A stretch of DNA of 30,856 nt from a virus, in IMG/VR virus record IMGVR_UViG_3300044616_001251, positions 1 through 30,856 of that record; one strand, written 5' to 3'. Shown one piece after another: positions 5,958-28,075 of this stretch. The notes under the pieces are model-generated. The model saw only the letters and a list, made by a program, of their open reading frames with translations. It searched no databases and had not been told where the DNA came from. The position numbers and the translations under genes were made by a program. Numbering within the stretch: the stretch's first letter is position 1; each line of letters begins with the position of its first letter.

Positions 5958-6981
5958 AAGTTCTTCTTACAACACCCACAGTCTCTGCGAGCAGCAATAT
6001 TTTCTTGAATACGTTTTAGGTTATCGTGGTCCATCAGGACAAAAAGCCGATAAAGGAACAATTGTTCATAAGGTTCTAGAAATTCTGGCCGTTATTAAAA
6101 AGGCGGAACAGGACGGTATTAATACCATAGATGATGATGTTATTGGAAAGCTAGATATATCTACATATAGTCTAAATACAATAATTGAAAAAGTCTATAA
6201 GTATTATACAGAAGCTAACTCCCATCACAAGTGGGCTTTAAAGGACTACAAAGACTGTCATGCATGGGTATATAAAGCTATTGAATTTAATGGTGGTATG
6301 TTCGACCCAAGAAACAGACACATTCTATGTCCAGAGCAGCACTTTGACATAGAAATTAAAAAACCCTGGTCAGCATACTCATATGACACTCCAGACGGCA
6401 AGCTGGAGGGCAACCTAGCCATCAAAGGAACGATAGATCTTATAACTCTGGTTGGCGATAATACAATAGAAATTGTAGACTGGAAAACAGGAAGAAGATT
6501 AGACTGGGCCACAGGCAAAGAAAAAACCCAAGAAAAACTAGAGCAAGATCCGCAGCTTAGAATTTATCATTATGCTATTAGTCATTTATATCCTAATATA
6601 GATCATATTATTTTTTCTATCTACTTCATCAATGACGGTGGTCCATTTTCTATATGTTTTGATAAGTCTGATTTACCAAAGACAGAAGAAATGCTTCGTC
6701 AAAAATTTGAGATAGTAAAGAACACAAGAAAGCCCAGATTAAATAAAAGCTGGATGTGTACAAAATTATGTCATTTTGGAAAAACAACATTTGATAATAC
6801 CCACATAACGCCACAGATAGAATATAGAGAAAACCATACATGCAGTATGGGCTCAACTATGACCAAATGCGAACAAGTCAAACATGATATCGACTTGCAC
6901 GGAATGAATGTTGTGGTAGAACAGTACAAAAACCAGAATCACTCCTTTGGAAAATATAAGGCGCCAGGAAGCACAGAATGA
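5938..6981 (+). CDS. Cas4/RecB-like PD-(D/E)XK nuclease, possibly Fe-S binding
   Basis: Encodes 347 residues from ATG 5938, inside the end of the HNH gene. Nuclease motifs in order are His44 in GTIVHKVLE, Asp167 in IKGTIDLITL, Asp181 and Lys183 in EIVDWKTGRR, and Gln206 with Tyr210 in DPQLRIYHYA. This is the RecB/Cas4 (PDDEXK_1) order H...D...D-x-K...Q-x3-Y. Cys17 near the N-terminus and Cys274, Cys278, Cys302 and Cys311 near the C-terminus could hold a 4Fe-4S cluster as in Cas4 and AddB, although the C-terminal spacing is not the usual Cas4 spacing. Such phage nucleases process DNA ends in recombination or replication. The start of the polymerase gene overlaps its stop by four bases (ATGA). 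No CRISPR genes are nearby, so a Cas role is not implied. Confidence 0.8.
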   Translation: MIVTYFRSSSYNTHSLCEQQYFLEYVLGYRGPSGQKADKGTIVHKVLEILAVIKKAEQDGINTIDDDVIGKLDISTYSLNTIIEKVYKYYTEANSHHKWALKDYKDCHAWVYKAIEFNGGMFDPRNRHILCPEQHFDIEIKKPWSAYSYDTPDGKLEGNLAIKGTIDLITLVGDNTIEIVDWKTGRRLDWATGKEKTQEKLEQDPQLRIYHYAISHLYPNIDHIIFSIYFINDGGPFSICFDKSDLPKTEEMLRQKFEIVKNTRKPRLNKSWMCTKLCHFGKTTFDNTHITPQIEYRENHTCSMGSTMTKCEQVKHDIDLHGMNVVVEQYKNQNHSFGKYKAPGSTE

Positions 6982-8843
6982 AAAACTACGTTCCACTTCA
7001 TGCACACTCTCACTACAGTCTATTGGATGGCCTCAGCAAGCCTGTTAAAATGGCTGAAAGATGTTCAAAAATCGGTGTTAAATCTTGTGCTTTAACGGAC
7101 CATGGCACAATAGCTGGTTCTGTTCAATTCTTTCAGGCAATGAAGTCTAAAGGAATAAAGCCTATTTTGGGCTGCGAGATTTATGTAAGTGAACAAGATT
7201 CTCATATTAAGACTAAAGAAAATAGTTCCTTAAGTCATTTCATATTATTGGCTAAAAACCTAAGTGGATGGAATGATCTTATAGCCATTATTTCTGAGTG
7301 TAATAAACCAGACAATTTTTATCATAAGCCGAGAATTAGCTTTGACAAATTAAGAGGCTTATTGAAAGGCAATATTCTTGGCTTTTCTGGACATTTGGGT
7401 TCTTGTTTAGCTGATGCCATAACAAAAGACAGAGACGATGCCATTAAAATAGGTACAGAACACATCGGCTTGATGAAGGATGTTTTTGGTGCTGAAAATT
7501 ATTTTCTGGAAGCACAACTAATGGACAGAGAATTCACACCAGAACAAATTGAATTAACGGAAACTATACGCAGACTAGGCAAATTAACCAACACTAGAGT
7601 TATTTGTACTCCAGATGCTCATTATTGCGAGAAAGAAGATTCTGTAGACCAAAGAATATTGTTGTGTAGTAATCTAAAAATAACACTAACAGATATTAAT
7701 AAGAAAATCTTAAATGGACAAGATGTTCCCATGGGTTGTTTCTTTAGGTCTGACAACTTTCATATCTTGTCTCCAGAAGAAATAGCAGAGCTACACACAG
7801 AAGAAGAAATAGAAAATACACTATATGTAGACGGCTTATGTGATAATTATGACATACTACACAAACCCATGTTACCTCCTTTTGAGTGTCCTGGTGGTAT
7901 GAACCCAGACGCATATTTGAGAGAGCTATGCAGAAAAGGATGGAAAGAAAAAATAGCAAATAATATAGATAAAGAACTACAACAGTCTTATGTAGATAGA
8001 ATTAAGTATGAACTAGAAATATTACAGGGTGCTGGATTATCTAGCTACTTTTTAATAGTGGGGGATATTGTAAATAAGGTTAGACATGAGCATTGGCTAC
8101 CCGGCCCTGGCAGAGGATCCGCTGCCGGATGCTTGGTGTCGTTTTTAATAGGTATTACGTCTATTGATCCAATGAAATATAATTTGATTTTTGAAAGATT
8201 TTATAATGCTGGTAGAAATACCCAAGATCGCATCTCCATGCCAGATATTGACGTAGACGTTCCTATTGATAAAAGAGAAGAGATTATCAGCTATATTAAA
8301 AACAAGTATGGTTCAAGCAAGGTGTCTCAAATGATTACTTTCAATACCATGAAAGGAAGAGGAGCACTTAAGGAAGTATTAAGGGTCTATGGCAATGTTA
8401 CATTCGACGAAATGAATCGTATTACAAAATTTATTCCAGACGAAGCTAAGATAGCAGACGAACTACAGGAAATGAAAGAAGATACGGGAGAAGCATCGAT
8501 TATTCGCTGGGCACTAGAAAACAATGTTGACAACCTCAAGGAATGGTGTTATATTGATGAGGATGGTGCTTTGTCTGGTCCGCTGGCAAAAAGATTTGAA
8601 CAGGCTATACGCTTAGAGGGAACTAAAGCTAATCAATCTAAACACGCTGCTGGCGTTGTCATCAGTAGCCAGGAATTGAGTGCCGTTTGTCCTATGGTTT
8701 ACGATTCAAAAAACAAACAATGTATCGCTGGAATGGAAATGCAAGACTTAGAAGCCATCGGAGTTATTAAGTTCGATATTTTAGGCATAGCGTTATTGGA
8801 TAAAATTATGCTTATTTCTGACCTAATGAAAGCCGGTGTATAA
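6978..8843 (+). CDS. dnaE (N-half): DNA polymerase III alpha subunit, N-terminal half (PHP and palm)
   Basis: Encodes 621 residues, about half of a normal DnaE. The PHP domain opens with PLHAHSHYSLLDGLSKPVK and keeps the metal-binding pattern (HAHSH, TDHGT, GCEIYV, FSGHLGS, TPDAHY), so it may be an active metal site rather than a degenerate one. The polymerase core has GPGRGSAAGCLVSFL (about residue 375), MPDIDVDVPIDKREE (about 420) with the two palm aspartates, HAAGVVIS (about 553), and IKFDILGIA (about 597) with the third catalytic aspartate. Translation stops soon after, at LMKAGV. The remainder of the polymerase is encoded at 9765-11384. No intein sequence is present at the break. The gene overlaps the nuclease gene upstream by four bases. 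Confidence 0.92.
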   Translation: MKNYVPLHAHSHYSLLDGLSKPVKMAERCSKIGVKSCALTDHGTIAGSVQFFQAMKSKGIKPILGCEIYVSEQDSHIKTKENSSLSHFILLAKNLSGWNDLIAIISECNKPDNFYHKPRISFDKLRGLLKGNILGFSGHLGSCLADAITKDRDDAIKIGTEHIGLMKDVFGAENYFLEAQLMDREFTPEQIELTETIRRLGKLTNTRVICTPDAHYCEKEDSVDQRILLCSNLKITLTDINKKILNGQDVPMGCFFRSDNFHILSPEEIAELHTEEEIENTLYVDGLCDNYDILHKPMLPPFECPGGMNPDAYLRELCRKGWKEKIANNIDKELQQSYVDRIKYELEILQGAGLSSYFLIVGDIVNKVRHEHWLPGPGRGSAAGCLVSFLIGITSIDPMKYNLIFERFYNAGRNTQDRISMPDIDVDVPIDKREEIISYIKNKYGSSKVSQMITFNTMKGRGALKEVLRVYGNVTFDEMNRITKFIPDEAKIADELQEMKEDTGEASIIRWALENNVDNLKEWCYIDEDGALSGPLAKRFEQAIRLEGTKANQSKHAAGVVISSQELSAVCPMVYDSKNKQCIAGMEMQDLEAIGVIKFDILGIALLDKIMLISDLMKAGV

Positions 8844-8900: not shown

Positions 8901-9080
8901 ATGGAAAAGAAATTCGGAGAAATAGCTGTAGGCGATAGATTTATATTAAATGGTGTCGAGTATGTCAAAACCCCCGACGTCAGAATTAGTTGCTGTCGTA
9001 GCGTCAATTGTCAGAGCGTGGGTAATCCAGACCAAAAAGAATTTATATCTGTAGAAACGGTGGTTAATATAAATGGCTAA
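8901..9080 (+). CDS. Small 59-residue protein of unknown function
   Basis: ATG 8901 follows a strong AAAGGAG at 8887-8893 and the frame ends at TAA 9078-9080, overlapping the exonuclease start by eight bases. The product begins MEKKFGEIAVGDRFILNGVE and continues with YVKTPD, two adjacent cysteines and a third (SCCRSVNCQS), then FISVETVV. The F-G-x-I-x-x-GD-x-F-x-x-NG-x-x-Y-x-K layout recurs in small phage proteins of unknown function and suggests a compact beta-barrel. I cannot assign an activity. Its strong ribosome binding site, coding context and position inside the split polymerase locus argue that it is real, and perhaps a partner of the polymerase-exonuclease assembly (inference). Confidence 0.7.
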   Translation: MEKKFGEIAVGDRFILNGVEYVKTPDVRISCCRSVNCQSVGNPDQKEFISVETVVNING

Positions 9081-9762
9081 TTATCAAAAACTTTGTGTGT
9101 TCGATCTTGAAACCGATGGGGCTAATCCTGAAAAATGTAGTCCTGTCCAAATTGCGGCTGTAATGGTTGATCCATATAAATTAGAAATTATACCGGATTC
9201 AGAATTCAACATCTGTTTAAAACCAGAAGCATTGCAGCAAAATACAGAGTACGATTACAACGACAGTGATGTGCTAGACTTTCATGCCAAGGTTAAAGGA
9301 ACATCAAAAGCCGAAGTGTTGAAAGAATGGCACGGTTATCAGCCTCAAGATCAGGGATGGAAGTTATTTGTTTCCTACTTAGAGCTATATCATACTCGAT
9401 CAGAGAAAAAATCGTGTTTTACAGCACCTATTGCTGCTGGTTATAATATCAATAGATTTGATATGAAAATCATAGAAAGATTAAGTACGAAATATAATAA
9501 CATAAACAAAGAGGGCAAGACCTCTCTTTTCTATCCTAGGGATGTTGCGGACATGATGAATGTCATGTTCTATTGGTTCGAAGGAAATAACGAGCTTAAA
9601 AACTATACCTTGGATCATGTTCGAGAATATTTTGGCATGTCTAAGGACGGGGCACACGACGCATTAAAAGATACCAAAGATACGGCCCAACTATTAATTA
9701 GATTTATGAGACTACATCGCAACCTATCTAACAAGATTAAGTTCAAAGGATCTTTTGTTTAA
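9073..9762 (+). CDS. DnaQ-like 3'-5' proofreading exonuclease (DEDD family)
   Basis: Encodes 229 residues. The three exonuclease motifs are present: Exo I CVFDLETDG (Asp11, Glu13), Exo II AAGYNINRFDMKIIE (about residues 121-135), and Exo III GAHDALKDTKDTA with the H-x4-D pair (about 195-200), making it a DEDDh-type enzyme. This matches the epsilon subunit of bacterial polymerase III and related phage exonucleases. It lies directly between the two halves of the split alpha subunit, so it very likely proofreads for that polymerase. Relative to E. coli DnaQ it has a longer insert after Exo I (about residues 30-115). No obvious clamp-binding motif was noticed. It starts inside the small upstream gene, and the C-half of the polymerase follows after two bases, so translation is probably coupled. 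Confidence 0.88.
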   Translation: MANYQKLCVFDLETDGANPEKCSPVQIAAVMVDPYKLEIIPDSEFNICLKPEALQQNTEYDYNDSDVLDFHAKVKGTSKAEVLKEWHGYQPQDQGWKLFVSYLELYHTRSEKKSCFTAPIAAGYNINRFDMKIIERLSTKYNNINKEGKTSLFYPRDVADMMNVMFYWFEGNNELKNYTLDHVREYFGMSKDGAHDALKDTKDTAQLLIRFMRLHRNLSNKIKFKGSFV

Positions 9763-9764
9763 TA

Positions 9765-11384
9765 ATGTCAGAATATTTAACTTTCGAGTGTGGATGTAAA
9801 TTCCCAGTACAGAAAACTTCTGATGGAGCAATTTCTGTATCTTTCTCTCCAAAAATCGAAGATATAGACCTTAACTGTTCTAAAACCTGGGATTTAATAT
9901 CTGAGGGTAATACTAAAGGCTGTTTTCAGTTGGAGTCTAGATTGGGTCAATCTATGGCCAAGAAACTCAAGCCAGAAAATATAGAACAGCTTTCTGCTCT
10001 AATCAGTATCTTGAGACCGGGATGTTTGGAAGCTATTAGAGAAGGAAAGAGCGTTTCAAATCACTATATCGATAAAAAAAATGGACAGGAAAGTGTAGAT
10101 TACTTTCATCCTAGTTTAGAGTCTGTACTCAGAACAACTTACGGTGAGATGATCTATCAAGAACAGGCTATGGAAATTGCTCAAACAATAGCTGGTTTTG
10201 ATTTAAAAGAAGCAGACATGCTTAGAAAAGCCATTGGAAAAAAGAAGCCAGAAGAAATGGCTAAGGTTAAATCTAAGTTCCTAGAAGGAACAAAAAACAA
10301 GCAAATAGTTTCAGAAAATCAGGCAGAAGAGATTTTTAGTTGGATCGAAAAAAGCCAAAGATATAGCTTCAACAAGTCACATGCCGTATCATATGCCATT
10401 AATGGCTACTTATCAGCATATGCTAAAGCTCATTTTCCTAGAGTATTTTTTGCGTCATATTTAAGATTTGCTAAAGATAAAATTGATCCTCAGCAAGAGA
10501 TAAAAGAACTAATAAGAAACGCTAATGAGATGGATATAAATATTTATATTCCTGATTTTAGAAATCTTAATGAGTTTTTTACAATCAAAGACAAGAACAT
10601 ATACTTTGGATTAACTGATATTAAAGGTGTTGGAGCTTCTGTCTATAAAAAGATTCTGGAGATTACAGAACCTCTTGATGTGACCTCTTTGTCTTGGTTG
10701 GAAACAACAACTAAGATTTTAATGAAGATTAATTCTACGGCAGCAAAAGCTCTTATATCTGCTGGGGCATTCGACTTCTTTAAGAAAAACAGAACCCAAA
10801 TGTTATTTGAATATGAACTATTAAGTAATTTAACACAAAAAGAGCTAGAGCAATTTGACAAGATTATGGTTCCTCAAGAGACGCTCAAAAACAATATTAT
10901 AAGACTAACAGAAATCGGTAAACTAAATAAAAACAGGAAAGACATTGTAATCAATTTAATTAAGTCAATAGACAATCCACCATATTCTCTAATAGATAAG
11001 ATAGAATGGTTATCTGATACAGAGAGTGGTTTGCTGGGAACATCTATAACCTGTTCTAAGCTAGACACATACGACATCAGTATGACCAACATGGATTGTA
11101 AGGCATATAAGAATACCTATATAGACAAAAATATTATTCTGGCTGGTGAAATTACCAATATTAATATCGTAAAAACTAAAAAAGGTAAAAATCCTGGACA
11201 GGAAATGGCATTTGTTAGTGTCGAAGACAATAGTGGCATGTTAGACTCTGTTGTCTTTTTTCCAGAAAAGTGGACCGAATACAAGCACTATTTATTCGAA
11301 AGGAATATATTGATATTCGTCGGCAACAAAACCAAAAACAAAGATGCCTTTGTGGTAGAAAAATGTTTTATTCCAAAATCTTGA
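9765..11384 (+). CDS. dnaE (C-half): DNA polymerase III alpha subunit, C-terminal half (fingers, HhH, OB fold)
   Basis: Encodes 539 residues. After a roughly 35-residue N-terminal extension with Cys9 and Cys11 (FECGCKFPV) that ordinary DnaE lacks, the protein joins the family at the point where the N-half left off: KGCFQLES (about residue 50), ISILRPGCLEAIREG, GEMIYQEQAMEIAQTIAGFD, DMLRKAIGKKKPEEM, FNKSHAVSYAINGYLSAYAK. The helix-hairpin-helix segment is FGLTDIKGVGASVYKKI, and an OB fold follows at IILAGEITNINIVKTKKGK through SVVFFPEKW. It has no catalytic aspartates of its own, so it must combine with the 6978-8843 product. The two halves sum to 1160 residues, about the size of an intact DnaE. 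The extra N-terminal segment may help the halves associate (inference). Confidence 0.9.
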   Translation: MSEYLTFECGCKFPVQKTSDGAISVSFSPKIEDIDLNCSKTWDLISEGNTKGCFQLESRLGQSMAKKLKPENIEQLSALISILRPGCLEAIREGKSVSNHYIDKKNGQESVDYFHPSLESVLRTTYGEMIYQEQAMEIAQTIAGFDLKEADMLRKAIGKKKPEEMAKVKSKFLEGTKNKQIVSENQAEEIFSWIEKSQRYSFNKSHAVSYAINGYLSAYAKAHFPRVFFASYLRFAKDKIDPQQEIKELIRNANEMDINIYIPDFRNLNEFFTIKDKNIYFGLTDIKGVGASVYKKILEITEPLDVTSLSWLETTTKILMKINSTAAKALISAGAFDFFKKNRTQMLFEYELLSNLTQKELEQFDKIMVPQETLKNNIIRLTEIGKLNKNRKDIVINLIKSIDNPPYSLIDKIEWLSDTESGLLGTSITCSKLDTYDISMTNMDCKAYKNTYIDKNIILAGEITNINIVKTKKGKNPGQEMAFVSVEDNSGMLDSVVFFPEKWTEYKHYLFERNILIFVGNKTKNKDAFVVEKCFIPKS

Positions 11385-11458: not shown

Positions 11459-11836
11459 ATGAATATTACAATTCTAAGAGGAAACCTTGCTCGTGATCCA
11501 GAACTTCGCGTAGTCAATACTGGAGGAAAGCAAACTTCGGTAGTAAATTTTACTGTTGCAGTTTCTCGCGAATACACAAAGGCAAATGGAGAAAAGGACA
11601 AGGTTGCATCTTTCATTAATTGTGAAGCATGGGACACTGGAGCAGAGATCATCGGGTCGTCTTTCCAGAAGGGCGATTTGGTATTAGTGGAAGGATCACT
11701 TAGGAATGACACCTGGGAGAAAGACGGCGTTAAGCATAGTAGTCTAAAAGTAAGAGTAAACAACTTCTCAAAGATTACTAAGCTAAGTAAGGCAGCCAAG
11801 TCTCAGGCAGAAGAGAGTGAAGTAGTCAACTTCTAA
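11459..11836 (+). CDS. ssb: Single-stranded DNA-binding protein (bacterial SSB type)
   Basis: Encodes 125 residues. The OB-fold sequence is typical of bacterial SSB: MNITILRGNLARDPELRV, NFTVAVSREYTKANGEKDKV, INCEAWDTGAEIIGSSFQKG, LVLVEGSLRNDTWEKDGV. The C-terminal tail is short (about residues 110-125) and ends EESEVVNF; it keeps acidic residues and the final Phe but not the Asp-Asp-Asp-Ile-Pro-Phe tip that binds host SSB partners. A strong AAGGAG lies nine bases before the ATG. It has its own sigma70-like promoter upstream and a rho-independent terminator downstream, so it can be made in quantity independently of the replication operon. It coats single-stranded DNA at the fork and in recombination alongside the recombinase and the Cas4-like nuclease. 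Assignment is secure. Confidence 0.93.
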   Translation: MNITILRGNLARDPELRVVNTGGKQTSVVNFTVAVSREYTKANGEKDKVASFINCEAWDTGAEIIGSSFQKGDLVLVEGSLRNDTWEKDGVKHSSLKVRVNNFSKITKLSKAAKSQAEESEVVNF

Positions 11837-11905: not shown

Positions 11906-13582
11906 ATGAATAAAAATAAACTAAAAGTATTAATGTGTTCAGAAGCCAGTTTTTTAAGTTCTGGTTTTGCTGTTTATGCCAGAGAGCTTCTCTCTCGTCT
12001 TCATGCAACCCAAAAATATGAAATAGCTGAGTTTGCTTCTTATGGAACTGTCAACGATCCCAGAGACGGCTCCATCAAATGGAAATATTACGCTAATGCT
12101 GTAGGTCCAAATGATCCTAGGAGTTCTGATTATAACTCCAGAATAGATAATCAATTTGGCAGGTGGAGGTTTGAAAAGGTTTTGTTGGATTTTAAGCCTG
12201 ATGTGGTAATTGACGTTAGAGATTATTGGATGAGCGCCTATCAAGCAATGTCCCCGTTAAGAAAATACTTTCATTGGATTCTTATGCCCACAGTCGATTC
12301 TGAACCACAGCAAGAGGCATGGCTAGACACGTATTTGTCTGCTGATGCCGTGTTTACTTATTCTGACTGGGGTGCCGAGGTATTAAAAAAACAAACCTCT
12401 GGAAAGATCAATTACATCGACACAGCCGCTCCAGGCGTTGATCTATCTATTTTTAAGCCACAGACCAAAGACTATAAGCTTGGACTTAAAAATAAACTTA
12501 ATATACCATCAGATTCTATTATTTTAGGGTCTGTAATGAGAAACCAAAAAAGGAAACTAATCCCTGATCTCTTTTTATCTTTTAGAAATTTACTGGACAT
12601 ATTTGAAAAAGAATCTCCAGACATTGGTTCTAAATTATATCTATATCTGCACACCAGCTATCCAGACGCAGGGTGGGATATACCCGAACTCTTAAAGGAA
12701 TATCGTATATCTAATAAGGTTCTATTAACTTACATTTGCAAACAATGTAAAAATTTCTATAGTAGAACATTTGCTGGCCCTGTAATCGGTTGTCCTCGTT
12801 GTGGGGAAATATCTTGCCAATTTACATCGGTTACTCAGGGTATCACATCCGAACAGCTATCAGACATATATAATCTATTTGATTGTTATATACAATACGC
12901 TATATGTGAAGGTGCTGGAATGCCACAAGTTGAGGCAGGGGCGTGTGGGCTTCCCATTTTTACTGTTGACTATAGTGCTATGATTGATATCATAGAAAAA
13001 CTTAAAGCAACACCTATTAAGGTTAAGTCTAGATTTAAAGAACTAGAAACAAAAGCCATAAGAGTATACCCAGACAATGAAGATTTAGTAAAGAAACTTT
13101 ATAAGTTCTTAAATTCTTCTAAGAAAGACAATCAACAACAATCTAATAATATTAGGAAGTTAACAACAAAATATTTTGATTGGGATATTTGTTTTAAAAA
13201 ATGGGAATCTTATTTAGATACTTTAGATAAGAATGGATATAGGTCCAATTGGGATAGTCCCATGATCCATATGTCAAATGTAAAAACCCCAACCAAACAC
13301 AATCCGCAAGATAATTTTGATTTGCTGATGTATATTTGTAATAACGTATTTCATAATCATAACATGATGTCTTCTATGATTTTATTGGGTATGCTTAAAG
13401 ATATAGATTATGGTTTTATCCAATCTGGGTTGAATATTCAGCCATCGAACCTAGAAGATACTATGGAAACAATAAATACAATGATACATAATAATAACGC
13501 AACAGAGTCAGTTAGATTGAGTGGTCAAGTCTTTGATGATGACTATATCAGATATGCAAACATGAAAGGTTCCTCCATATGA
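11906..13582 (+). CDS. GT-B fold glycosyltransferase (GT4-like) with inserted zinc ribbon
   Basis: Encodes 558 residues. It starts KLKVLMCSEASFLSSGFAVY, the first Rossmann strand and donor-side loop of GT-B enzymes. The second domain has ILGSVMRNQKRKLIPDLFLS (about residues 207-226), and the GT4 signature SDIYNLFDCYIQ with EGAGMPQVEAGACGLPIF. Glu335 and Glu343 give the E-x7-E motif that binds the nucleotide-sugar. A zinc ribbon (Cys278-x2-Cys281, Cys296-x2-Cys299) interrupts the C-domain, which is unusual. About 130 extra residues follow the transferase fold. It would move a sugar from an NDP-sugar to an unknown acceptor. It starts just after the ssb terminator with no clear Shine-Dalgarno, and no promoter is obvious, so read-through may feed it. 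It overlaps the next gene by ATGA. Confidence 0.82.
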   Translation: MNKNKLKVLMCSEASFLSSGFAVYARELLSRLHATQKYEIAEFASYGTVNDPRDGSIKWKYYANAVGPNDPRSSDYNSRIDNQFGRWRFEKVLLDFKPDVVIDVRDYWMSAYQAMSPLRKYFHWILMPTVDSEPQQEAWLDTYLSADAVFTYSDWGAEVLKKQTSGKINYIDTAAPGVDLSIFKPQTKDYKLGLKNKLNIPSDSIILGSVMRNQKRKLIPDLFLSFRNLLDIFEKESPDIGSKLYLYLHTSYPDAGWDIPELLKEYRISNKVLLTYICKQCKNFYSRTFAGPVIGCPRCGEISCQFTSVTQGITSEQLSDIYNLFDCYIQYAICEGAGMPQVEAGACGLPIFTVDYSAMIDIIEKLKATPIKVKSRFKELETKAIRVYPDNEDLVKKLYKFLNSSKKDNQQQSNNIRKLTTKYFDWDICFKKWESYLDTLDKNGYRSNWDSPMIHMSNVKTPTKHNPQDNFDLLMYICNNVFHNHNMMSSMILLGMLKDIDYGFIQSGLNIQPSNLEDTMETINTMIHNNNATESVRLSGQVFDDDYIRYANMKGSSI

Positions 13583-14589
13583 ATATCCTATATGTCGGAC
13601 CATATCGTGTAGAAAATGACATTGGTATTGAGTCCCAGTCTCATATTCAAAATTTATTAGCCTCCAAACATACTGTTACAACCAGACCAATTTATACCAG
13701 TATTAATGACCCAACAATAAAACTAGATATTCTACCTTGTGAATCACGAATATGTGACTCTTATGATGTTCTAATACAGCATGCTCCTGTTGATTGGCTT
13801 CAACCTCATCAGGGCTTTGTTACAAATATCGCAATACCGATATTGGGTCCAGCTCTGATTCTCAGAGAATGCCAAGTATCTTCATTGAAGCGATTTAATA
13901 AAATCCTCGTAGCTAACACACAAGATGAAGTAAGACTTGTTAGATCTGGTTTAGGCGACTCTATTACTAGAATATCCTACCCCATTCTTCCTTCATCGGT
14001 AAGCGATATTAAAGATCAGAAAATTGATTTTGGGGTTCATAATAAGTCACTTAAATTCTATTTTTTTGGCAATATGCATACAGATGCAGATATTATTCAA
14101 AAAATACTTGTTAGTTTTTATACCGCATTTAGGGGAAACTTCGGGAGAAGCCTAATACTGTTATTGGATAATGTAACAAATAAAGACAAACAACAATTTA
14201 TGGAAATAATTAATTCTATTAAACAACAGCTGAAAATACACAAATATCCTAAAAGCACAACAGAGTATGTTATGTTTAAGTCGTTATCTTTTCAAGAAAA
14301 ATTAATGATCCACAATACATGTGATGTTTTTCTAAGTCTTAATTCGACTACTAAGTCAACCATCCAAGAAGAACATGCAAAATACCTAAATAATGTTATT
14401 ATTAATACAGAAAACCTAGAGACAGTCTCTGTACCAAGAATTACAAATGAGGATTTTGAGCCAAATGAACGAGTTGATTCTATTATTACAGAATCCCTTG
14501 TTGAACAAATAAAACTGGCTTCCATGATTGACCCAAAATCTCAGAAATATACCACCCCCAATACAAACTATCTAGCCAACATAATATGA
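13579..14589 (+). CDS. Putative GT-B glycosyltransferase-like protein, divergent
   Basis: Encodes 336 residues, overlapping both neighbours by ATGA. The N-terminus MNILYVGPYRVENDIGIESQ resembles the opening of GT-B enzymes (a first strand followed by a Gly-containing loop). The second half begins KFYFFGNMHTDADIIQKIL and contains SFQEKLMIHNTCDVFLSLN, the place where GT-B proteins have a helix and strand before the donor site. The following segment TIQEEHAKYLNNVIIN stands where an E-x7-E motif and a Gly-Pro turn would be, but only part is kept. It may therefore be an inactive or altered transferase acting as a subunit of a complex. The fold call rests on pattern only and is moderate; catalytic activity is doubtful. 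Confidence 0.55.
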   Translation: MNILYVGPYRVENDIGIESQSHIQNLLASKHTVTTRPIYTSINDPTIKLDILPCESRICDSYDVLIQHAPVDWLQPHQGFVTNIAIPILGPALILRECQVSSLKRFNKILVANTQDEVRLVRSGLGDSITRISYPILPSSVSDIKDQKIDFGVHNKSLKFYFFGNMHTDADIIQKILVSFYTAFRGNFGRSLILLLDNVTNKDKQQFMEIINSIKQQLKIHKYPKSTTEYVMFKSLSFQEKLMIHNTCDVFLSLNSTTKSTIQEEHAKYLNNVIINTENLETVSVPRITNEDFEPNERVDSIITESLVEQIKLASMIDPKSQKYTTPNTNYLANII

Positions 14590-15455
14590 GCGTTTATCCT
14601 AATCATAATATCATTGACAGTGTTTATAGAAATTATAAGAAACTAAAGCCTAGTGTTGTTATAAATGCTCAGAATAGTATCTTTGCATCTACATTAATAA
14701 ATCACACTAATGACTATTCTTTTGTAGCAATCAAAAATTCAAAAGAAATGTCAAATCTCTGTAATTTATTTAATATAAACGCATATATAACATCCGACTA
14801 TCTTAGTCATTCACAAGAAAGAGATATATATCAACAGTATCATATCAAAGAAATTCTTTTATTAATAGATAGCCCAATGGTGTTGCTTAAAAAAGAAGAT
14901 CTGATTTTATTAAGAGACAGACTTAACGACGTTAACAAAATAGTGGTGGGTAGCCAAATAGCATCATCTTGGGACTTCCTTAAAGAAATTGGAACTATTG
15001 ATCCGGGAATACCAAAATACTCACTAAATACAGAACCTAGAAAATCAGTTATCGTTATTAGCGATAGTTCTAATGTCTCAAAAAGAATATGCAAAATATT
15101 ATATGAGCACTATCCTGATATGAAAATATGCAAAACTTTTGATGACTATAACGAATCCATGAACGATCTTAATTCTTATAAGGTGTGTGTTAATTTAAAT
15201 ACCCCAATAGATAGTCTATATGGTCTATATGCGGGGTGTCACGTTATATCTAATAAGTCTTTATATGATCATGAAACGATTTATGAGAACATAGAACACA
15301 TCCCACAACTGATCAAACAAAAAACAGAAACTTTTGATATCCAAGAACAAAAAGATGTTCATTATTCTTTGGAACAAAAGTATGATTTGCAAAAATTTGC
15401 TGCTAATATGAGTAATTTAATGTATAAATATATCAAGGAGCCTTTTTATATATGA
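14586..15455 (+). CDS. Uncharacterised protein of the glycosyltransferase cassette, possibly degenerate GT-B
   Basis: Encodes 289 residues with ATGA overlaps on both sides. It shows alternating hydrophobic strands and helices, as in Rossmann-type folds (KPSVVINAQ, YSFVAIKNSKE, EILLLIDSP, KIVVGSQIASSW). The C-terminal part has KSVIVISDSSNVSKRICKIL and later LYGLYAGCHVIS, which sits where GT-B proteins have the donor-site helix followed by a Gly and a strand. No E-x7-E motif is present. I would call it a likely degenerate GT-B relative, from context and layout rather than from clear homology. The gene probably acts with its neighbours, since all genes here share translational coupling. Confidence that it is a real gene is high; confidence in the fold is low. 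Confidence 0.45.
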   Translation: MSVYPNHNIIDSVYRNYKKLKPSVVINAQNSIFASTLINHTNDYSFVAIKNSKEMSNLCNLFNINAYITSDYLSHSQERDIYQQYHIKEILLLIDSPMVLLKKEDLILLRDRLNDVNKIVVGSQIASSWDFLKEIGTIDPGIPKYSLNTEPRKSVIVISDSSNVSKRICKILYEHYPDMKICKTFDDYNESMNDLNSYKVCVNLNTPIDSLYGLYAGCHVISNKSLYDHETIYENIEHIPQLIKQKTETFDIQEQKDVHYSLEQKYDLQKFAANMSNLMYKYIKEPFYI

Positions 15456-15871
15456 GTAGAAATATTGCAATATGTATTGACAAGTCGGCATTTAGAGCTA
15501 TTGATGGATTTAATAGTGTTGACATAAATAATTTAGGTAATATAATAAACTATTCAGTGGGCGCTCTTGTGATTGACCATTTAAATATCATCGATGATGA
15601 TGATATTCCTATGTTATGGCAGGAGATTAGCAGCAAGATGGCTGTTGGTGGACAAATAGTGATGAGATTTATTGACGCCAAAGTACTAGCTCAAAAATTT
15701 GTTGATAATATCATTGGAGATAAGGAATTTATGAACTATATTTCTATCTTAAAATCTGTATTAACAGTAGATAAAATCTATAATCAAATAGGCTCAGATT
15801 TCATAGTTACCGATACGGACAGATCAGAGATTTATACAACCATTAAAGTGCTGAGAAATAGTATATCATGA
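15452..15871 (+). CDS. Degenerate SAM-methyltransferase-like protein
   Basis: Encodes 139 residues. The layout follows small predicted class I methyltransferases: a first strand RNIAICID, then GFNSVDINN (where the acidic end of strand 2 lies), GALVIDHLNIIDDDDIPMLW (in place of the h-x-x-EH-h segment), and SSKMAVGGQIVMRFID (in place of the L-x-P-GG-x-L strand). The Gly-rich SAM-binding loop normally found after strand 1 is absent; here it reads DKSAFRAID. This suggests a fold kept for structure or binding, with SAM chemistry probably lost. It could serve as a scaffold for the glycan cassette. ATGA overlaps link it to both neighbours. The fold call rests on motif order alone and is moderate to low. 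Confidence 0.4.
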   Translation: MSRNIAICIDKSAFRAIDGFNSVDINNLGNIINYSVGALVIDHLNIIDDDDIPMLWQEISSKMAVGGQIVMRFIDAKVLAQKFVDNIIGDKEFMNYISILKSVLTVDKIYNQIGSDFIVTDTDRSEIYTTIKVLRNSIS

Positions 15872-16620
15872 TAACGAACACAAACTGCAAAAAGTGCTTA
15901 TTTGCCAATAAAGCTAGTTCTGATACTCCATGCGAACATAATATTATTGAACACATTAAAGGACATAAGAAAACTAGCATAGTAGATGACTTCTATGTCA
16001 TAGAAGAATATATGTGTAGGATGGGTTTTAACAAAGACGTATTTGAAAAAAATAAAGATAATGTTTCTATAGACGTTATCAAACAAGAAATAATTAATAA
16101 AGCGTGTATGGGATACTATGCAGTGATAGATATAACCACACTAGATCCAGCTGGGGTTTCTCGTCTTTGCGAAACCTTAATAGGACTATCTATCAAGCCT
16201 AAATTTGTATCTTTTTTGCTTTTTCCAGATGATAGCAATAAAGAAAAAATTCTAGCACTAAAAAATCAAATAGGCGATCATTTTATGTGGAAAGCACATA
16301 GTTTTATAAGTGAAATATCTTTCGATGATGCTTTGAATGTTGCTTTAGATACTAATGTTGGAAAAAATAATACTAGTTTTTTATTAATCTACGATGCTAA
16401 AAATATAGCAGAGTTGGACGAGGATATTAATGAGCTTAATAGTCATATAGTCATATTGCAAACATTATTTCATTATGCAAAGAAAAAGAAAGCCGATGGT
16501 CTTGGCGGGTTGTTCATGACTTTTAGCAATTACAATATTTGTAGATCTATCAATAAAAATATAGAGCAAGCACTATCCACAATCCCGGAAGCTATTGTAT
16601 TAGAATATGGCAATCATTGA
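15868..16620 (+). CDS. Uncharacterised protein with N-terminal cysteine cluster
   Basis: Encodes 250 residues. The N-terminus has Cys7-x2-Cys10 and Cys22 within TNCKKCLFANKASSDTPCEH, plus a His nearby (HNIIEHIKG), which could bind zinc or another metal. The rest is mixed alpha/beta with a hydrophobic strand GYYAVIDITTLDPAGVSRLC, then KPKFVSFLLFPDDSNKEK and SFLLIYDAKNIAELDEDIN. The spacing of strands is reminiscent of a GT-A-like or other Rossmann-like fold, but there is no D-x-D motif in the expected place. I do not recognise the family. It overlaps the upstream gene by four bases and the downstream gene by 14, so it belongs to the glycosyltransferase cassette. No function is proposed. Confidence 0.5.
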   Translation: MITNTNCKKCLFANKASSDTPCEHNIIEHIKGHKKTSIVDDFYVIEEYMCRMGFNKDVFEKNKDNVSIDVIKQEIINKACMGYYAVIDITTLDPAGVSRLCETLIGLSIKPKFVSFLLFPDDSNKEKILALKNQIGDHFMWKAHSFISEISFDDALNVALDTNVGKNNTSFLLIYDAKNIAELDEDINELNSHIVILQTLFHYAKKKKADGLGGLFMTFSNYNICRSINKNIEQALSTIPEAIVLEYGNH

Positions 16621-17281
16621 ACCTATTCACGCTCTTATTATAGCGTCCGAAGTAACAAAAGGCATGAAGTCTATAGGATCAAAGTCCTTATTGAGGATTA
16701 AGAACTCTGTACTTGTAATAGAACACCAAATACAAGAATTAAAAAGACAACACAAGAACATAGACATTACAGTTGCTACGGGATTTGAATCTGAAAAGAT
16801 GTTGAAAATACTCGATGAATATAATGTCAAATTCTTACATAATCAAAAATATCAAACCACAAATCAGACAAAATCCATTATTGACTATATTAATACTCAT
16901 ATTCCGAATAAGTTATTAGTAATCAGTAGTGGCATATTATTTAAAAGTCGTTTCTTAACATCAGGTCAAGACTCTTGTATATTTATGTTAGACAAGCCAA
17001 AGTCAGACTTCACAATAGGCTGCAACATGAAGGATGATTCAGTTTATTTATTTTATGATCTTCCACAAAGATGGTCTGAATGTGCCATGCTAAACTCTCA
17101 AGATCTTAATGTATTAAAGAAAATTGCTAAAGACAAAAATTTAGATCAATTATATTTATTCGAAATCATGAACTTATTATCTGATGTTGGGTCTAAGATC
17201 AATAAGATTAATATATCTAAGCAACAAATCATGAAAATTGCCAACATAAAAGATTTATCAAAAGCTAGGAGTTTTGTATAG
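16607..17281 (+). CDS. Degenerate nucleotidyltransferase-like protein (GT-A/NTP-transferase fold)
   Basis: Encodes 224 residues. The plan of sugar-phosphate nucleotidyltransferases is visible: HALIIASEVTKGMKSIGSKS (in place of LAAG-x-G-x-RM-x(n)-PK), SLLRIKNSVLVIEHQIQELK, NIDITVATGFESEKML, and FLHNQKYQTTNQTKSI, matching the N-x-x-Y-x-x-TN-x-x-S motif. The Gly and Arg of the nucleotide-binding loop are missing (residues 14-20), although Lys26 stays. The strand LLVISSGILF (residues 103-112) lacks the catalytic Asp of the usual GD motif. The fold is thus recognisable but the active site looks broken, which suggests a regulatory or structural subunit, or a changed chemistry. It lies within the overlapping cassette and shares one base with the next gene's GTG start. 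Confidence 0.6.
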   Translation: MAIIEPIHALIIASEVTKGMKSIGSKSLLRIKNSVLVIEHQIQELKRQHKNIDITVATGFESEKMLKILDEYNVKFLHNQKYQTTNQTKSIIDYINTHIPNKLLVISSGILFKSRFLTSGQDSCIFMLDKPKSDFTIGCNMKDDSVYLFYDLPQRWSECAMLNSQDLNVLKKIAKDKNLDQLYLFEIMNLLSDVGSKINKINISKQQIMKIANIKDLSKARSFV

Positions 17282-17994
17282 TGAATATTTTTGTGCAAAA
17301 ACAGGATAGTAAATTTATTAACAACATTATTTTAACCCTAAGACATATGGGGATTGATGTTATATCAACAGACATAAATAATGATCTATATAAAATATAT
17401 CATAATCATCAATTTTCAATCGGTATATTTTTAGCTTCAAAATTTAATAACGAAACAGCTCAGTTTGTATCCGAATTTTATTCGAAACAAGTGAAGTCTA
17501 TTATTTATCATGATATTGATAATACGGATGTTATGAGTGATTTTAGTAGAGCCGCTCATCACCTGTCCCATAATGCTTATGAGAATACTACTACTATTCC
17601 TAAGATGATAAACAATCATCTCTATAAAAATTTGGGTTTGGTTCGTAGAAAATCTGCGTATGCATTATTCTTAGATCATAGGAAAAATATTCCAGATAAT
17701 ATAATAGATATTCTATATCCTAATACTAAACTGCATATTAATATGTTTAATAGCGAACATGTGTCTCATCATCAGAACTTAGGCAAAGTGTCTGAGATAG
17801 ATAAAGCCAATATTCTTAATTCGTATGAATTCTTTATTGATATAAACGGAGACTATTCCGCAGAAGCTGTAGAATGCGGCGCTAAGCTAATTTCTGTAGA
17901 TCAGATAAAGCTAGGCAAAAAAACAAAAATAACCAATAAAATAGATCCCACAATAACAACATACGAAACCTTTATTAGGTCTAATTTACTATGA
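17281..17994 (+). CDS. Putative GT-B-like protein, short form
   Basis: Encodes 237 residues and starts with GTG 17281, which overlaps the previous TAG by one base. The N-terminal half has NNIILTLRHMGIDVISTDIN and QFSIGIFLASKFN, compatible with a GT-B N-domain. The C-terminal half contains ANILNSYEFFIDINGDYSAE followed by AVECGAKLISVDQ, resembling the stretch of GT-B enzymes in which a strand (the protein's presence in the donor cleft), a Glu-Ala helix and a Gly followed by a strand occur. No E-x7-E motif is complete. At 237 residues it is much shorter than active GT-B enzymes, so it may be a non-catalytic relative of the cassette's lead transferase. It overlaps the next gene by ATGA. Fold confidence is low to moderate. 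Confidence 0.45.
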   Translation: MNIFVQKQDSKFINNIILTLRHMGIDVISTDINNDLYKIYHNHQFSIGIFLASKFNNETAQFVSEFYSKQVKSIIYHDIDNTDVMSDFSRAAHHLSHNAYENTTTIPKMINNHLYKNLGLVRRKSAYALFLDHRKNIPDNIIDILYPNTKLHINMFNSEHVSHHQNLGKVSEIDKANILNSYEFFIDINGDYSAEAVECGAKLISVDQIKLGKKTKITNKIDPTITTYETFIRSNLL

Positions 17995-18461
17995 ATGCAA
18001 CACAAAAAGATTACGGATTTATATTACTAAAATTAGAAGATGGCCCAACCTTTGATAAGGTAATAGATAATATAGAGACCATAGCTTCACATAAGCCATA
18101 TAATCAAATATGTATTTTTAATAGCTCAAATGATAGAATACAATCCCATACTGTTCCAGTTCTTCATTTAAATCAATCCAGATTTTTCTTTGGTAATTTG
18201 TTTCTATTTGATATACAGTCCGCCATGATTAGTCAATCTTATCCTAATATTCACAAGAGATATTTATATGTCACGAATGTACCTTGGGAACAAAACCTTG
18301 AGGGCGATTATAAGGAATGGAAGAATGTATTCGATGTAGAAAATCTAGAAATTATTGCACAAAACCAACACATAGCAGATATTTATGAGATATGTTGGAA
18401 AAAACCCATTTTAGTAGCGGAGGATTTTACATATGAGCAAATCAAAAACATCCTGGAATAA
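17991..18461 (+). CDS. Uncharacterised last gene of the glycosyltransferase cassette
   Basis: Encodes 156 residues. I do not recognise a family. It reads as mixed alpha/beta: YGFILLKLEDGPTFDKVIDN, YNQICIFNSSNDRIQ, RFFFGNLFLFDIQSAMISQS, KRYLYVTNVPWEQ, then an acidic helical C-terminus EDFTYEQIKNILE. The pattern of a strand carrying a short loop and then a helix could be the front of a GT-A or Rossmann fold, but no catalytic signature is visible. It is bound to the cassette by an ATGA overlap upstream. Its last 29 bases overlap the downstream endonuclease gene, whose strong ribosome binding site (GGAGG, 18419-18423) lies inside this gene, so its 3' end may have been remodelled when the endonuclease arrived. 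Confidence 0.45.
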   Translation: MNATQKDYGFILLKLEDGPTFDKVIDNIETIASHKPYNQICIFNSSNDRIQSHTVPVLHLNQSRFFFGNLFLFDIQSAMISQSYPNIHKRYLYVTNVPWEQNLEGDYKEWKNVFDVENLEIIAQNQHIADIYEICWKKPILVAEDFTYEQIKNILE

Positions 18462-19233
18462 TTTATCAAAAGGCGATAAGTCCGATATTCTCAACGAGCT
18501 ATATATTAAACAAAAAAAGAGTTTTGCAGATATAGCCTTGTTGTATGATACATATCCCAACAAAATTAGACGTGAAACAGTGTCATTAAATATTCAGATT
18601 AGGAACAAGTCAGAAGCTCAAAAAAACGCTCTGAAAACAGGCAAACATAAGCACCCAACTAAAGGAACCCAAAGACCAGAAGAGACAAAAAACAAAATAG
18701 GCACAGGGGTGATGAAGGCTTGGGAGTCCTTGGATGGGCCAGAGCTAGAACAGCGACGAACAAAAGCAAAAGAGGCGTGGCTTAAACTAGACGACGATGA
18801 GAAGATCAGACTAACACAATTAGCCAATCAGGCTGTAAGAAAAACTTCTAAGGTTGGGTCTAAGCTAGAAAAATATATGCTTGAATATCTTTTGAAAAAG
18901 AATCTCAAAGTAGAATTTCATAAAGAGCAAATCCTATCAAATACCAAGTTGCAGATAGACCTGTTTCTTCCTAACATGGGTATAGCTATAGAAATTGATG
19001 GGCCGTCTCACTTCTTGCCAGTATGGGGCGAAGACGCTCTTCAAAAGAACATTAATTATGATCAGAAAAAGCAAGGACTAATATTAGGAAAAGGTCTGAC
19101 TTTAATTAGGATCAAACAGACCAAAGATTTTTCTAAAACCAGAGCACAAAGAATTTGTGATAATTTATCTTTGCTATTGGACAGCATATCCAAAACTAAG
19201 ACTCAAACAAAAAACTTTTTAATAGAGGATTGA
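18433..19233 (+). CDS. Vsr-like homing endonuclease candidate with N-terminal helix-turn-helix
   Basis: Encodes 266 residues from ATG 18433 with GGAGG nine bases upstream. Residues 15-58 form a helix-turn-helix-like module (LYIKQKKSFADIALLYDTYP). A following segment GTQRPEETKNKIGTGV (about 78-93) looks like a NUMOD-type DNA-binding repeat found in homing enzymes. The nuclease core runs from LQIDLFLP (Asp176) through AIEIDGPSHFLPVWGE (Glu187, Asp189, His193, Glu200) to NINYDQKKQGLIL (Asp210, Lys212) and a strand LTLIRIKQ. This matches the Vsr-like endonucleases of phages, of which the EDxHD homing enzymes such as I-Bth0305I are characterised examples. The placement at the 3' end of the cassette, overlapping its last gene, fits a mobile gene. 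Nuclease assignment is strong, homing is inferred. Confidence 0.78.
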   Translation: MSKSKTSWNNLSKGDKSDILNELYIKQKKSFADIALLYDTYPNKIRRETVSLNIQIRNKSEAQKNALKTGKHKHPTKGTQRPEETKNKIGTGVMKAWESLDGPELEQRRTKAKEAWLKLDDDEKIRLTQLANQAVRKTSKVGSKLEKYMLEYLLKKNLKVEFHKEQILSNTKLQIDLFLPNMGIAIEIDGPSHFLPVWGEDALQKNINYDQKKQGLILGKGLTLIRIKQTKDFSKTRAQRICDNLSLLLDSISKTKTQTKNFLIED

Positions 19234-20294: not shown

Positions 20295-23200
20295 CTATAT
20301 CTTAGGTGGTAATTTACTTCCTTGTGTAAATCTGGTAATTCTTTGATTTATTGATTTTGGATCTTTAGTGGTATTTCTTAATATCTCTCCAGCCGATCTA
20401 AATTTACTAAGATTATATATCTGTCCTTTTTGTGGTACCATATAATTTAATAATGGATCAGGATTATAATAATCGTTATAGGCATATGTAAGCGAAGGAA
20501 GTTCTTCAAACCAAGCTGGTTTATCCATCCTAAAAAAGCCAAAGCCATCCATCAGATCGTTATAGTCTTCTGGCATTGGTGGGATAATTGGTGTTATTTG
20601 ACCTCCCAAAGCTTCATAAATACCTTTATAGTATAGACCAAAACCTCCTTTCCAATTCCTAACAATTGTATCTATTTCTATATATAAGGTAGTTTTTAAC
20701 ATGTTTTTAGTTTCTGTGTTTAATGTCTCATCAGTATCAATAATGCTTATCTGTTTGTAAATTGGTATCAACGGAGCTTTAGCAGCTTCGTAGATGCCCT
20801 TAAAATTAATCGCAACGTCAAAATAATATGTGGTATCATCTGAGTTTAATTCTGGCCCTATGGGTACCCATTGACCACTATAGTATCTAAATATAGCATA
20901 AAATCCAGAAGATAATATTGTTATCCTAAAAGGATACTTAATAATCTCTTCGTTTAGATGATTAGTTCTACGATCAGTGAAATATACATGTTCGAACAAG
21001 TCTATTATACGATCTTCAGAATAGAATTCACGATCATATCGTTCAAGATCCAAAGGATTGTATTGAACTGGAGCTTTGTGAATATATTCGTATCTAACTT
21101 CGGTGGGTAGTCTTGGTAATTGTTCAACAGATTTCTTCACGGCCCATGTTGCTACAAGAGTATTATTTTCTTGATCCAAGATGTTGATAAAATTGGTTTT
21201 AAGATTAACGGCTTCCTGTAATTTCAAGAAAGCCTGATCTTCATTATAAGCTACCACAATAGTGCTTGTATTTTTACCTATTTCGTATTTATATTTTGGT
21301 TTAAAATTAAATGTTAGCCAATCCCACTCCCTTCCTATATAATATTCGTTATACAAATAATACTCTATTTTAAATCTATATTTAATAGCAAAATATTTTT
21401 CATAATTAACTCCATATAAAAGATAGCTCATATCGTCATCGTCATTATTTGACTCAGACATGGTAGAAAAATAATTAGTTCGTGATAGATTAGTATTGAT
21501 TTGGTTAAGAGATTGTGCAGAGTTTAAGAAATTGATGGTTTCTTGTTCCTCAATGCCTGCACCGGGTTCAGAATAATACTCATACGGAATCCATTCCCAA
21601 TCCTCTTTAGTATCAAGGAAGAGAGTGTTTTTATTTTCTATGCCATCACTACTACCAAAAAAAGATCTATATCTCATTTCATTTGCTACTTGATAATATG
21701 GGGGTAGTCCTGTAAATATTCCGGAAGAATCTACGCAATGCCAACAAGTAAAGTTATTAGCAATTTGACCAACAGAACTTGGGGGTCTGCTAGATTTAAC
21801 TAAACTACCGTTTCTATTGTAGATATACTTATCAAAGCTATCTGAATCTATGCTCTTTAATTTACGGGGAATATTTCTAAATTTTAAGTATATCGTATTT
21901 TGATTATCCAGGTCTATTCTGTCTTTAATTTTCCCAGTTCTAAGGTCAGAAGTCCCACTAGGTCTTATGTAAGTTTCTTCTGTAATAACTAACATATCCT
22001 TAGAGCTATCTAGTCTAGAAATCATTAGTTTTTTACTATCTCCACTATCTCCTAAACTGCCATATTTGAAAGTTTCATCTATACCACTCCCCCAAACAAT
22101 TCCAGTAGACCATTCTTTTTTGGATTCTGATATGGTCGTGTCTCCCATTTTATAACTATATATCAAGCCCTGAGTATCCATATATACTCCGCTCATATTA
22201 TGAACACCACTGGGGATGCCAAGAAATGATGTTTGTGGCACTATATGAGAAGCAGAATCTGAGGTTATTCCTTCATTAAATACCTCGGATATAGGAACAG
22301 CCCTCATTCTAATCTCTTTTAGTACTTTAACAGATAGCTCGTCATTAAGTCTGCATTGTTGTTCCGGATCTATGTGGATCCAATAGCGGTATGGATTAAT
22401 AGCATAATTAATAGAGGTACTCCCGTCTGTGCCGGATGAAACAATACCAGAAACATATGGTATAAAACCATCCGCTGTTGATGGTAACGACAAGGCTATT
22501 TCTATGTTCTTTCTTTCTGCTTCCAGCACCTTTATTTTCTGATAGGTTGATGTTTTTGGACATGTACCCTCACTGTAGTCTGTAAAACAGCTTAAGGGGT
22601 CTGGGTCCAAAGAATAGTATTCAGCATATGATCCTGGAATAATGCCAGTAGATAATAAGCTCAAGCGATTCGATAAATTTGTTAAATTACCAGAAGAAAA
22701 ATATACTGGTATTATTTTATTGAGATCATTTTCTATATGTAGAGAGCCACTGGCAGGGATGCCGGTCCCCTTTAATTTATCTGATTTAATTTCCATAAAC
22801 TGCTTGTCTGACCAATCATTAGCCAAAAGACTATTTTGAATCCTATATCTTTCATTGTTGTCTACAGTATTGATAACATTACTAGATATTGGCTTGCTCA
22901 GAAATTGCTCAAGTGTGTACGAGTATCCTTTTAGTAGATTGACACCAACATCTCCACCACTATAGGCAATGGTGGTGGTCTGTATGCTAGAGCCGCCGTT
23001 TGTATCTGGCATGTCTCCTTTTAAAAATACTCGATTGAATTTATACTTATCATTTGATTCATTATTTAATAATTTGTTTGTCTCTAACAATTCGCTATTC
23101 TTAAAAGACATCTTATATAATATGTCTGGATCCAGAATATCCGATCCTGAATTCATAGATCCTTCTCCATATGCAGATACAAAATTTAATGGATTAAGAT

Positions 23201-28070: not shown

Positions 28071-28075
28071 TTATA

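Follow-up and report, generated by a model that had tools for sequence, protein, structure and literature searches.

A conserved phage operon with one intact glycosyltransferase and several probable pseudo-enzymes

An eight-gene operon from a large uncultured phage appears to combine one intact glycosyltransferase with relatives of carbohydrate enzymes that have lost catalytic residues and are maintained by selection. The operon lies at positions 11906-18461 of a 30,856-nucleotide stretch of DNA (hereafter, the window) from IMG/VR virus record IMGVR_UViG_3300044616_001251; the window corresponds, with one mismatch, to positions 34,530-65,385 of a 237,915-base IMG/VR contig. Six of the eight products, which we call P1 to P8 in order, have carbohydrate-enzyme ancestry (P1, P2, P3, P5, P6, and P7). 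Among these, P2, P3, and P6 are very likely pseudo-enzymes, and the same assignment is slightly less secure for P5 and P7, which are judged from predicted folds and for which active ancestors were not found. It is likely that P1 to P8 serve a shared function, and we consider it probable, with less confidence, that they form a physical complex. Our interpretation, to which we give roughly even chances, is that they constitute a phage-encoded multi-subunit protein glycosyltransferase in which P1 would be catalytic and a virion structural protein would be the acceptor, with the complex, acceptor, donor, and division of labor being those that we infer.

A gene set conserved across divergent phages

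All eight open reading frames (ORFs) run in the same direction on the + strand. An initial annotation of the window, made from the sequence alone, had described an overlapping eight-gene cassette joined at nearly all junctions by four-base ATGA overlaps. The cassette itself is borne out, and chance does not explain it, given that dozens of divergent contigs have the same genes in the same place. The statement about junctions holds for five of the seven within the window; P5 and P6 overlap by 14 bases, and P6 and P7 by a single base, with P7 starting at GTG. Among 21 dereplicated loci with all eight genes, the four-base overlap occurred in 14, 7, 11, 16, 0, 15, and 13 at the successive junctions from P1/P2 to P7/P8, such that P5/P6 is the sole junction where it was never seen.

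Relatives were collected with the C-terminal half of the window's DnaE, which matched 233 stretches, the best 80 of these being used (loci are denoted by L-numbers and the records used in comparisons by G-numbers). In these stretches, homologs of P1 to P8 sit between a gene for SSB and an endonuclease-like gene, which we call HE. Representatives of P1 are 52-76% identical to the window protein, falling to 38-41% in L083 and L085 only, and identities are 21-37% for P2 and 17-29% for P3. Exact-peptide scans with P2, P5, and P6 each led to one and the same pair of contigs, which match the query at 100% identity, and to no others. The 55 complete loci comprise 39 with P1 to P8 (L066 and L067 being counted as carrying P8, for which an open frame is present), nine without P5, two in which an unrecognized gene replaces P5 (L030 and L033, with a 263-amino-acid gene that the P5 profile does not match), three with P5 and P6 only, and two with P1, P5, P6, and a small gene. 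The genes for P2, P3, P4, and P7 behave as a unit in all 55, being jointly present in 50 and jointly absent in 5, near-duplicates counted; among 36 representatives, the corresponding numbers are 33 and 3. The set is kept together in other phages, in line with the initial annotation.

A second scan, with a divergent P5 as the query, added 27 loci of three types: four-gene operons (P1, P5, P6, and a small gene), phages with P5 and P6 only, and the outgroup operons L105-L116. In addition, prokaryote genomes searched with P1 yielded five contigs from metagenome-assembled genomes (MAGs); one of them (L162) holds the full set, and two (L164 and L165) have an outgroup-like one.

Loss of catalytic residues from P1 partners

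Searches of P1 to P8 against Pfam and PHROGs recognized P1 alone; the lowest E-value for P2 to P8 was 0.0012, between P8 and phrog_17646. P1 (11906..13582, + strand, 558 amino acids) is a GT-B glycosyltransferase of the GT4 type with intact motifs. It matches PF00534 (Glycos_transf_1) at 3.9e-9, with 36.7 bits against a cut-off of 26.4, and phrog_2170 at 2.4e-24. Its EX7E motif consists of E335 and E343, and a zinc-ribbon-like insert carries C278, C281, C296, and C299. These four cysteines and both glutamates are invariant in 37 sequences; in a set of 17 that includes the window and the outgroups, EX7E is found in all and the four cysteines in 13. The one convincing GT-B enzyme of the initial annotation is thus confirmed. 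We considered whether the zinc ribbon arose as the partner proteins decayed and rejected the idea, since the ribbon is incomplete in L107, L110, L113, and L168 and complete in L164-L166 and L169. A likeness of P1 to PC4 (2.6e-4) was put down to chance.

The clearest evidence for degeneration comes from outgroup phages, where a corresponding operon, flanked by SSB on one side and by matching downstream genes on the other, has intact enzyme copies. In a midpoint-rooted tree of HE and gp20 (52 distinct of 76 usable loci), L107, L108, L110, L111, L113, and L114 fall outside the window's clade. Given that loss is likelier than repeated gain, and with the root of the tree assumed, the direction of change would be from intact to degenerate.

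P2 (13579..14589, + strand, 336 amino acids) is a pseudo-GT-B protein that has lost both EX7E and the R-K pair. Its family aligns with outgroup P2 at 100% (hhalign, E 2e-42), and outgroup members match Pfam glycosyltransferase families directly, including PF00534 in L113 (2.1e-12) and PF13692 in L107 (2e-8). The EX7E/D motif is kept in 12 of 12 sequences made up of nine outgroup members, some of them near-duplicates, together with L080, L082, and L087; it has been lost from all 34 representatives of the window clade, as well as from L105 and L106. Against solved structures, the P2 sequence gave only an entry named OR280 (0.011). P3 (14586..15455, + strand, 289 amino acids) shows the same pattern. 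It aligns with outgroup P3 at 98.4% (hhalign), the L113 member matches PF00534 at 6.8e-17, and the glutamate of the LLEAM motif, which is the second of the EX7E region, is found in 9 of 10 outgroup rows and in none of 36 others, among them L080, L082, and L087.

P6 (16607..17281, + strand, 224 amino acids) is a pseudo-nucleotidyltransferase resembling LicC and NTP_transf_3. Its profile matches LicC, a CTP:phosphocholine cytidylyltransferase (1jyk), at 3e-10 over positions 20-220 of 225, and outgroup P6 at 99.9%; the L107 protein matches NTP_transf_3 at 4.1e-8. Unlike LicC, P6 of the window type lacks the metal-binding aspartate. Specifically, the first metal Asp is found in 0 of 33 such sequences (31 Gly, 2 Glu), in 9 of 13 of the four-gene type, where the second Asp is missing, and in one of nine outgroup rows (L107); it also reads as kept in L168 and L169, and P6 of L107, L168, and L169 retains the catalytic motifs.

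For P5 and P7, the assignment relies on predicted structure. P5 (15868..16620, + strand) has an N-terminal domain with four cysteines (C7, C10, C22, and C50), all invariant in 44 of 44 sequences, and a pseudo-GT-A domain at about residues 79-250. The AlphaFold2 model has a predicted local distance difference test (pLDDT) score of 95.5, with the Cys4 domain separate from the GT-A domain, and its best Foldseek E-value is 1.8e-5. Residues 82-250 align with mannosylglycerate synthase 2y4j (VIA Z 14.7, 164 aligned, root mean square deviation [rmsd] 2.8). There is no conserved DxD: a D-x-D string at the aligned strand occurs in 4 of 44 sequences, with its register not fixed, and not in the window P5. 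Profile comparison links the family to outgroup P5 at 98.6%, and nothing convincing emerged from a search of the P5 sequence against solved structures. P7 (17281..17994, + strand, 237 amino acids) is predicted to be a miniature two-domain GT-B fold (AlphaFold2 pLDDT 94.7, Foldseek 2.0e-5). The model aligns with SenB over 225 of 237 residues (VIA Z 13.9, rmsd 4.3), and the rows listed are mostly GT4-like GT-B enzymes; the P7 sequence had no convincing match among solved structures. The second EX7E glutamate (E195) is retained in 35 of 35 members, and the first position (187) is mixed, with Glu in 0 of 35. In L107, the P7 position holds an enzyme-like gene (PF13524, 2e-6). Direct descent of P7 from the outgroup gene at that place is not supported (hhalign, 7.6%), and the GT-B assignment depends on the predicted structure. 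When P1 to P8 were compared all against all by profile, the sole notable pair was P3 and P7 (83%).

The two remaining products are small. P4 (15452..15871, + strand, 139 amino acids) might represent the latter half of a class I methyltransferase, judging from weak Pfam matches among 35 members (CheR in two; CMAS, Methyltransf_23, and DUF3419 in one each) and from an outgroup-rich set in which 4 of 15 proteins matched CMAS weakly (best 0.056). Its family aligns with outgroup P4 at 98.3% in profile comparison, and its sequence found nothing convincing among solved structures. P8 (17991..18461, + strand, 156 amino acids) is a conserved protein with no recognized fold. It has no Pfam match, its best PHROGs family (phrog_17646) is of unknown function, and it aligns with outgroup P8 at 95.4% (hhalign). 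The idea that P8 is a GT-B fragment was dropped: at about 12 bits, its match to the GT-B-like product encoded at 219 kb in the 237,915-base contig was too weak.

The initial annotation had read the partners of P1 as GT-B, methyltransferase, or nucleotidyltransferase relatives with broken active sites, or as unrecognized. This stands for P2, P3, P5, P6, and P7, and the methyltransferase portion, which would be P4, is weak. Profile-profile searches connected P2, P3, P4, P5, P6, and P8 to outgroup families, with P6 also reaching LicC, and the structures predicted for P5 and P7 gave GT-A and GT-B folds, respectively. We saw neither a placement of the genes in unrelated, noncarbohydrate families nor relatives in which they are never kept together, the structural part of this statement covering P5 and P7.

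The inference that intact frames reflect selection also held up. By the NG86 method, the ratio of nonsynonymous to synonymous substitution rates (dN/dS) was 0.03-0.18 for P2 to P8 in four close pairs (L030/L033, L080/L087, L032/L036, and L037/L068, with P5 testable in two of the four) and 0.03-0.06 for P1. Fifteen pairs were compared in all, several from the same lineages; one had diverged too little to be informative, and in a few cases the ratio could not be calculated. These ratios indicate that P2 to P8 are not in neutral decay and that purifying selection acts on them in the window clade.

An alternative to the pseudo-enzyme reading is an assembly line of noncanonical but active enzymes, in which P2, P3, P5, P6, and P7 would catalyze with unusual residues and jointly build an oligosaccharide. 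Outgroup operons contain plainly active-type enzymes, and the conserved residues of P6 (K18, K21, N86, and E186, all invariant or nearly so) and the P7 glutamate indicate that ligand binding may persist. We regard this alternative as unlikely in view of the absence of EX7E from 34 of 34 P2, of the LLEAM glutamate from 36 of 36 P3, and of the P6 metal Asp from 33 of 33, together with the lack of a conserved DxD in P5.

P5 beside a virion gene

When eight P5-lacking records were searched, P5 was found elsewhere in three (G005, G007, and G018), directly upstream of a gene that we call S and downstream of a gene without an assigned name. S is present in 22 of 32 records. Of 24 members of the S family, nine match phrog_985, annotated as "virion structural protein" (best 1.2e-6), and the S sequence had no convincing match among solved structures. 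Since a tape-measure-sized ORF is located two genes away, S is plausibly the major tail protein. Four records (G005, G007, G018, and G033) carry three tandem copies, and the other 18 carry one, including G002, where two partial matches within one ORF were counted as a single copy. In each of the four records with three copies, two of which (G007 and G033) are near-identical, P5 sits immediately upstream of the leading S copy; in the 18 with a single copy, it was never within 1.5 kb of S. The tandem triplication (L132-L135, L154-L157, and L159-L161) thus occurs in exactly the four records with P5 adjoining. The relocated P5s form one clade with support of 1.0 (G033 is outside that tree), and the phages that carry them stand apart in the HE/gp20 tree. 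At the limits used, a phage isolate collection contained no relatives of P2, the P5 of L083, S, or portal.

The position of P5 beside S favors glycosylation of a virion protein over modification of DNA, if indirectly. We take the virion as the leading candidate target, at about even odds, and P5 as a candidate acceptor-recognition subunit. An alternative is that phage DNA or nucleotides are the substrate of the cassette, with a base glycosylated during replication. This would suit its surroundings: the operon is next to SSB, and 5' of it are ORFs reading as DnaB, primase, and split DnaE, as well as a dNMP kinase (phrog_139, 7.7e-35). Hydroxymethyl bases are made by enzymes of the thymidylate-synthase family, with Tet/JBP oxygenases as an alternative source. 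The former (PF00303) matched 0 of 17 records, which may be incomplete, while a control matched 9 of 14; the latter (PF12851) matched 0 of 20, a weak result given that the positive control gave no match either. We accordingly set aside a hydroxymethyl-base route, and with P5 placed beside a virion gene, we consider DNA modification improbable.

We assign a similarly low probability to remodeling of host surface polysaccharide, whether for superinfection exclusion or receptor change. Excerpts of a jumbo-phage review read the glycosyltransferase clusters of cyanophages as making outer polysaccharides (PMC7824862), and the 237,915-base contig has at about 200-215 kb (L127) a second cluster of ORFs that, judged by sequence only, resemble genes for sugar enzymes, glycosyltransferases and methyltransferases among them. 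However, in Pfam and PHROGs, the operon proteins match neither a membrane flippase nor a lipid-carrier transferase family, and P5 adjoins S in four records.

A proposed mechanism and evidence against it

In the multi-subunit glycosyltransferase that we propose, P1 would be the catalytic GT-B subunit. P2 to P8 would derive from a glycan-synthesis operon in which several members were once active, and they may now hold or regulate P1 as subunits that provide a scaffold, sense nucleotide sugars, or bind the acceptor. The acceptor would be the virion structural protein S, near the tape-measure-sized ORF, recognized by P5. The donor is plausibly a sugar of the GDP-6-deoxymannose type made with phage enzymes; GDP_Man_Dehyd passes its cut-off in 13 of 28 records, at 1.6e-108 or better in eight. 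More tentatively, and with less than even chances, an assembly line may have been converted into an obligate hetero-oligomeric protein glycosyltransferase, with former enzymes as noncatalytic subunits around one GT-B and an interchangeable P5 that can move beside the virion gene it serves.

Several observations weigh against this interpretation. The search of the eight P5-lacking records gave no P5 in five, although those contigs may be incomplete. L080, L082, and L087 have no P5 in the operon, and none was found elsewhere in their contigs, yet the records of L082 and L087 hold S; phages of the L080 type, with P2 intact, do not fit cleanly with a virion target recognized by P5. Because the relocated copies form one clade, they represent a single relocation event. 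The cassette is part of the replication module and lies outside the structural one, and just the 13 records noted above exceed the GDP_Man_Dehyd cut-off. Loss of the P6 metal Asp in eight of nine outgroup rows means that this decay is not special to the window clade. With window-clade profiles, P3 and P7 are unrecognized in L105 and L106, as is P7 in L107-L116, and P4 and P8 are not placed in a family. More divergent pairs reached dN/dS of up to 0.59, with large dS. Finally, some phages have P5 and P6 and no P1 in the operon. This last pattern speaks for pseudo-enzymes that act independently, inhibiting host glycosyltransferases or soaking up nucleotide sugars or signals without forming a machine with P1. 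We think this very unlikely in light of the fixed gene order, the overlapping junctions, and the all-or-none occurrence of P2, P3, P4, and P7.

Relation to known systems

Phage glycosylation operons are already known, and we rate the pseudo-enzyme cassette as a variant of them. Synechococcus phage S-CBS4 and Microcystis phage Mae-JY09 encode, in a neighborhood of portal, capsid, and head genes, a P1-like GT-B (24.6% and 24.9% identity, respectively) with more sugar-type enzymes after it. In contrast to the window cassette, the followers there (GT2-like, methyltransferase, and epimerase, by our reading of their sequences) are not matched by the P2 to P8 profiles. In GtfA/GtfB-type pairs, an active GT-B and a degenerate GT-B coactivator carry out O-glycosylation of a surface protein. 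The window system is similar in joining an active GT-B to a degenerate one, and GtfA (4pqg) is in the list of structural matches to P7; it differs in having three pseudo-GT-B proteins, a pseudo-GT-A, and a pseudo-nucleotidyltransferase.

Another parallel is GMPPA, which excerpts of one study describe as a noncatalytic paralog that binds GDP-mannose and regulates the active GMPPB (PMC11228364). There, too, a noncatalytic relative of a sugar nucleotidyltransferase sits beside an active sugar enzyme, and the GMPPA/GMPPB complex (7d73) is among the VIA matches of P5. However, the presumed partner of P6 is a glycosyltransferase rather than another nucleotidyltransferase. The moraphages, as portrayed in parts of PMC12619734, are jumbo aquatic phages with four core groups of putative glycosyltransferases. 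By description, they resemble the window lineage in being large phages from aquatic metagenomes that conserve several glycosyltransferase genes, and differ from it in having a family B polymerase instead of a split DnaE. A passage in the same paper, citing Freeman 2023, mentions that subunits of the capsid and tail tube bear glycans. The jumbo-phage review (PMC7824862) describes a split minimal DNA polymerase III, and the window operon is not described in the excerpts of either source. Furthermore, we found no description of such a gene set in searches of the open-licence literature on phage glycosyltransferases, virion or DNA glycosylation, and pseudo-enzyme glycosyltransferases.

With intact enzymes and their noncatalytic relatives in one lineage, still linked and under selection, the operon offers a natural test of how enzyme sets become multi-subunit machines. 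It also provides a handle on what such large uncultured phages glycosylate.

Genomic setting and additional observations

The constant upstream neighbor of the cassette is SSB (11459..11836, + strand), so named from its sequence, which adjoins it in 84 of 87 loci by tblastn, with overlapping and truncated loci counted here and for HE. Downstream, HE (18433..19233, + strand; phrog_559 HNH endonuclease, 1.7e-14) is present beside the cassette in 62 of the 87. HE resembles an HNH or homing endonuclease, yet it is a fixed cassette neighbor and not a sporadic element. The split DnaE of the window occupies ORFs 6978-8843 and 9765-11384, separated by an exonuclease-like gene (9073-9762); the split is present in relatives too, and in L095 the C-terminal DnaE ORF is longer (788 amino acids). 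The - strand at 20295-30856 contains a giant ORF of 2591 amino acids and an ORF of 874/926 amino acids, with no PHROG match at 0.01.

Other observations concern the relatives. The L113 operon has an additional gene matching Gly_transf_sug (9e-12), together with a GT2 match that is weak (8.7e-4) and below the cut-off, and in L115 (1862-7720) Aldedh, saccharopine-dehydrogenase-like, and GDP-mannose-dehydratase-like genes lie within the cassette. L164 and L165 are contigs of one Lokiarchaeota MAG with a phage region that includes an outgroup-like cassette, which may reflect a binning error or an archaeal host. Inteins tend to occupy conserved active sites, and two distant phages (L014:12136-14997 and L169:1205-4045) carry an intein-like, apparently LAGLIDADG-type insertion inside the EX7E motif of P1.

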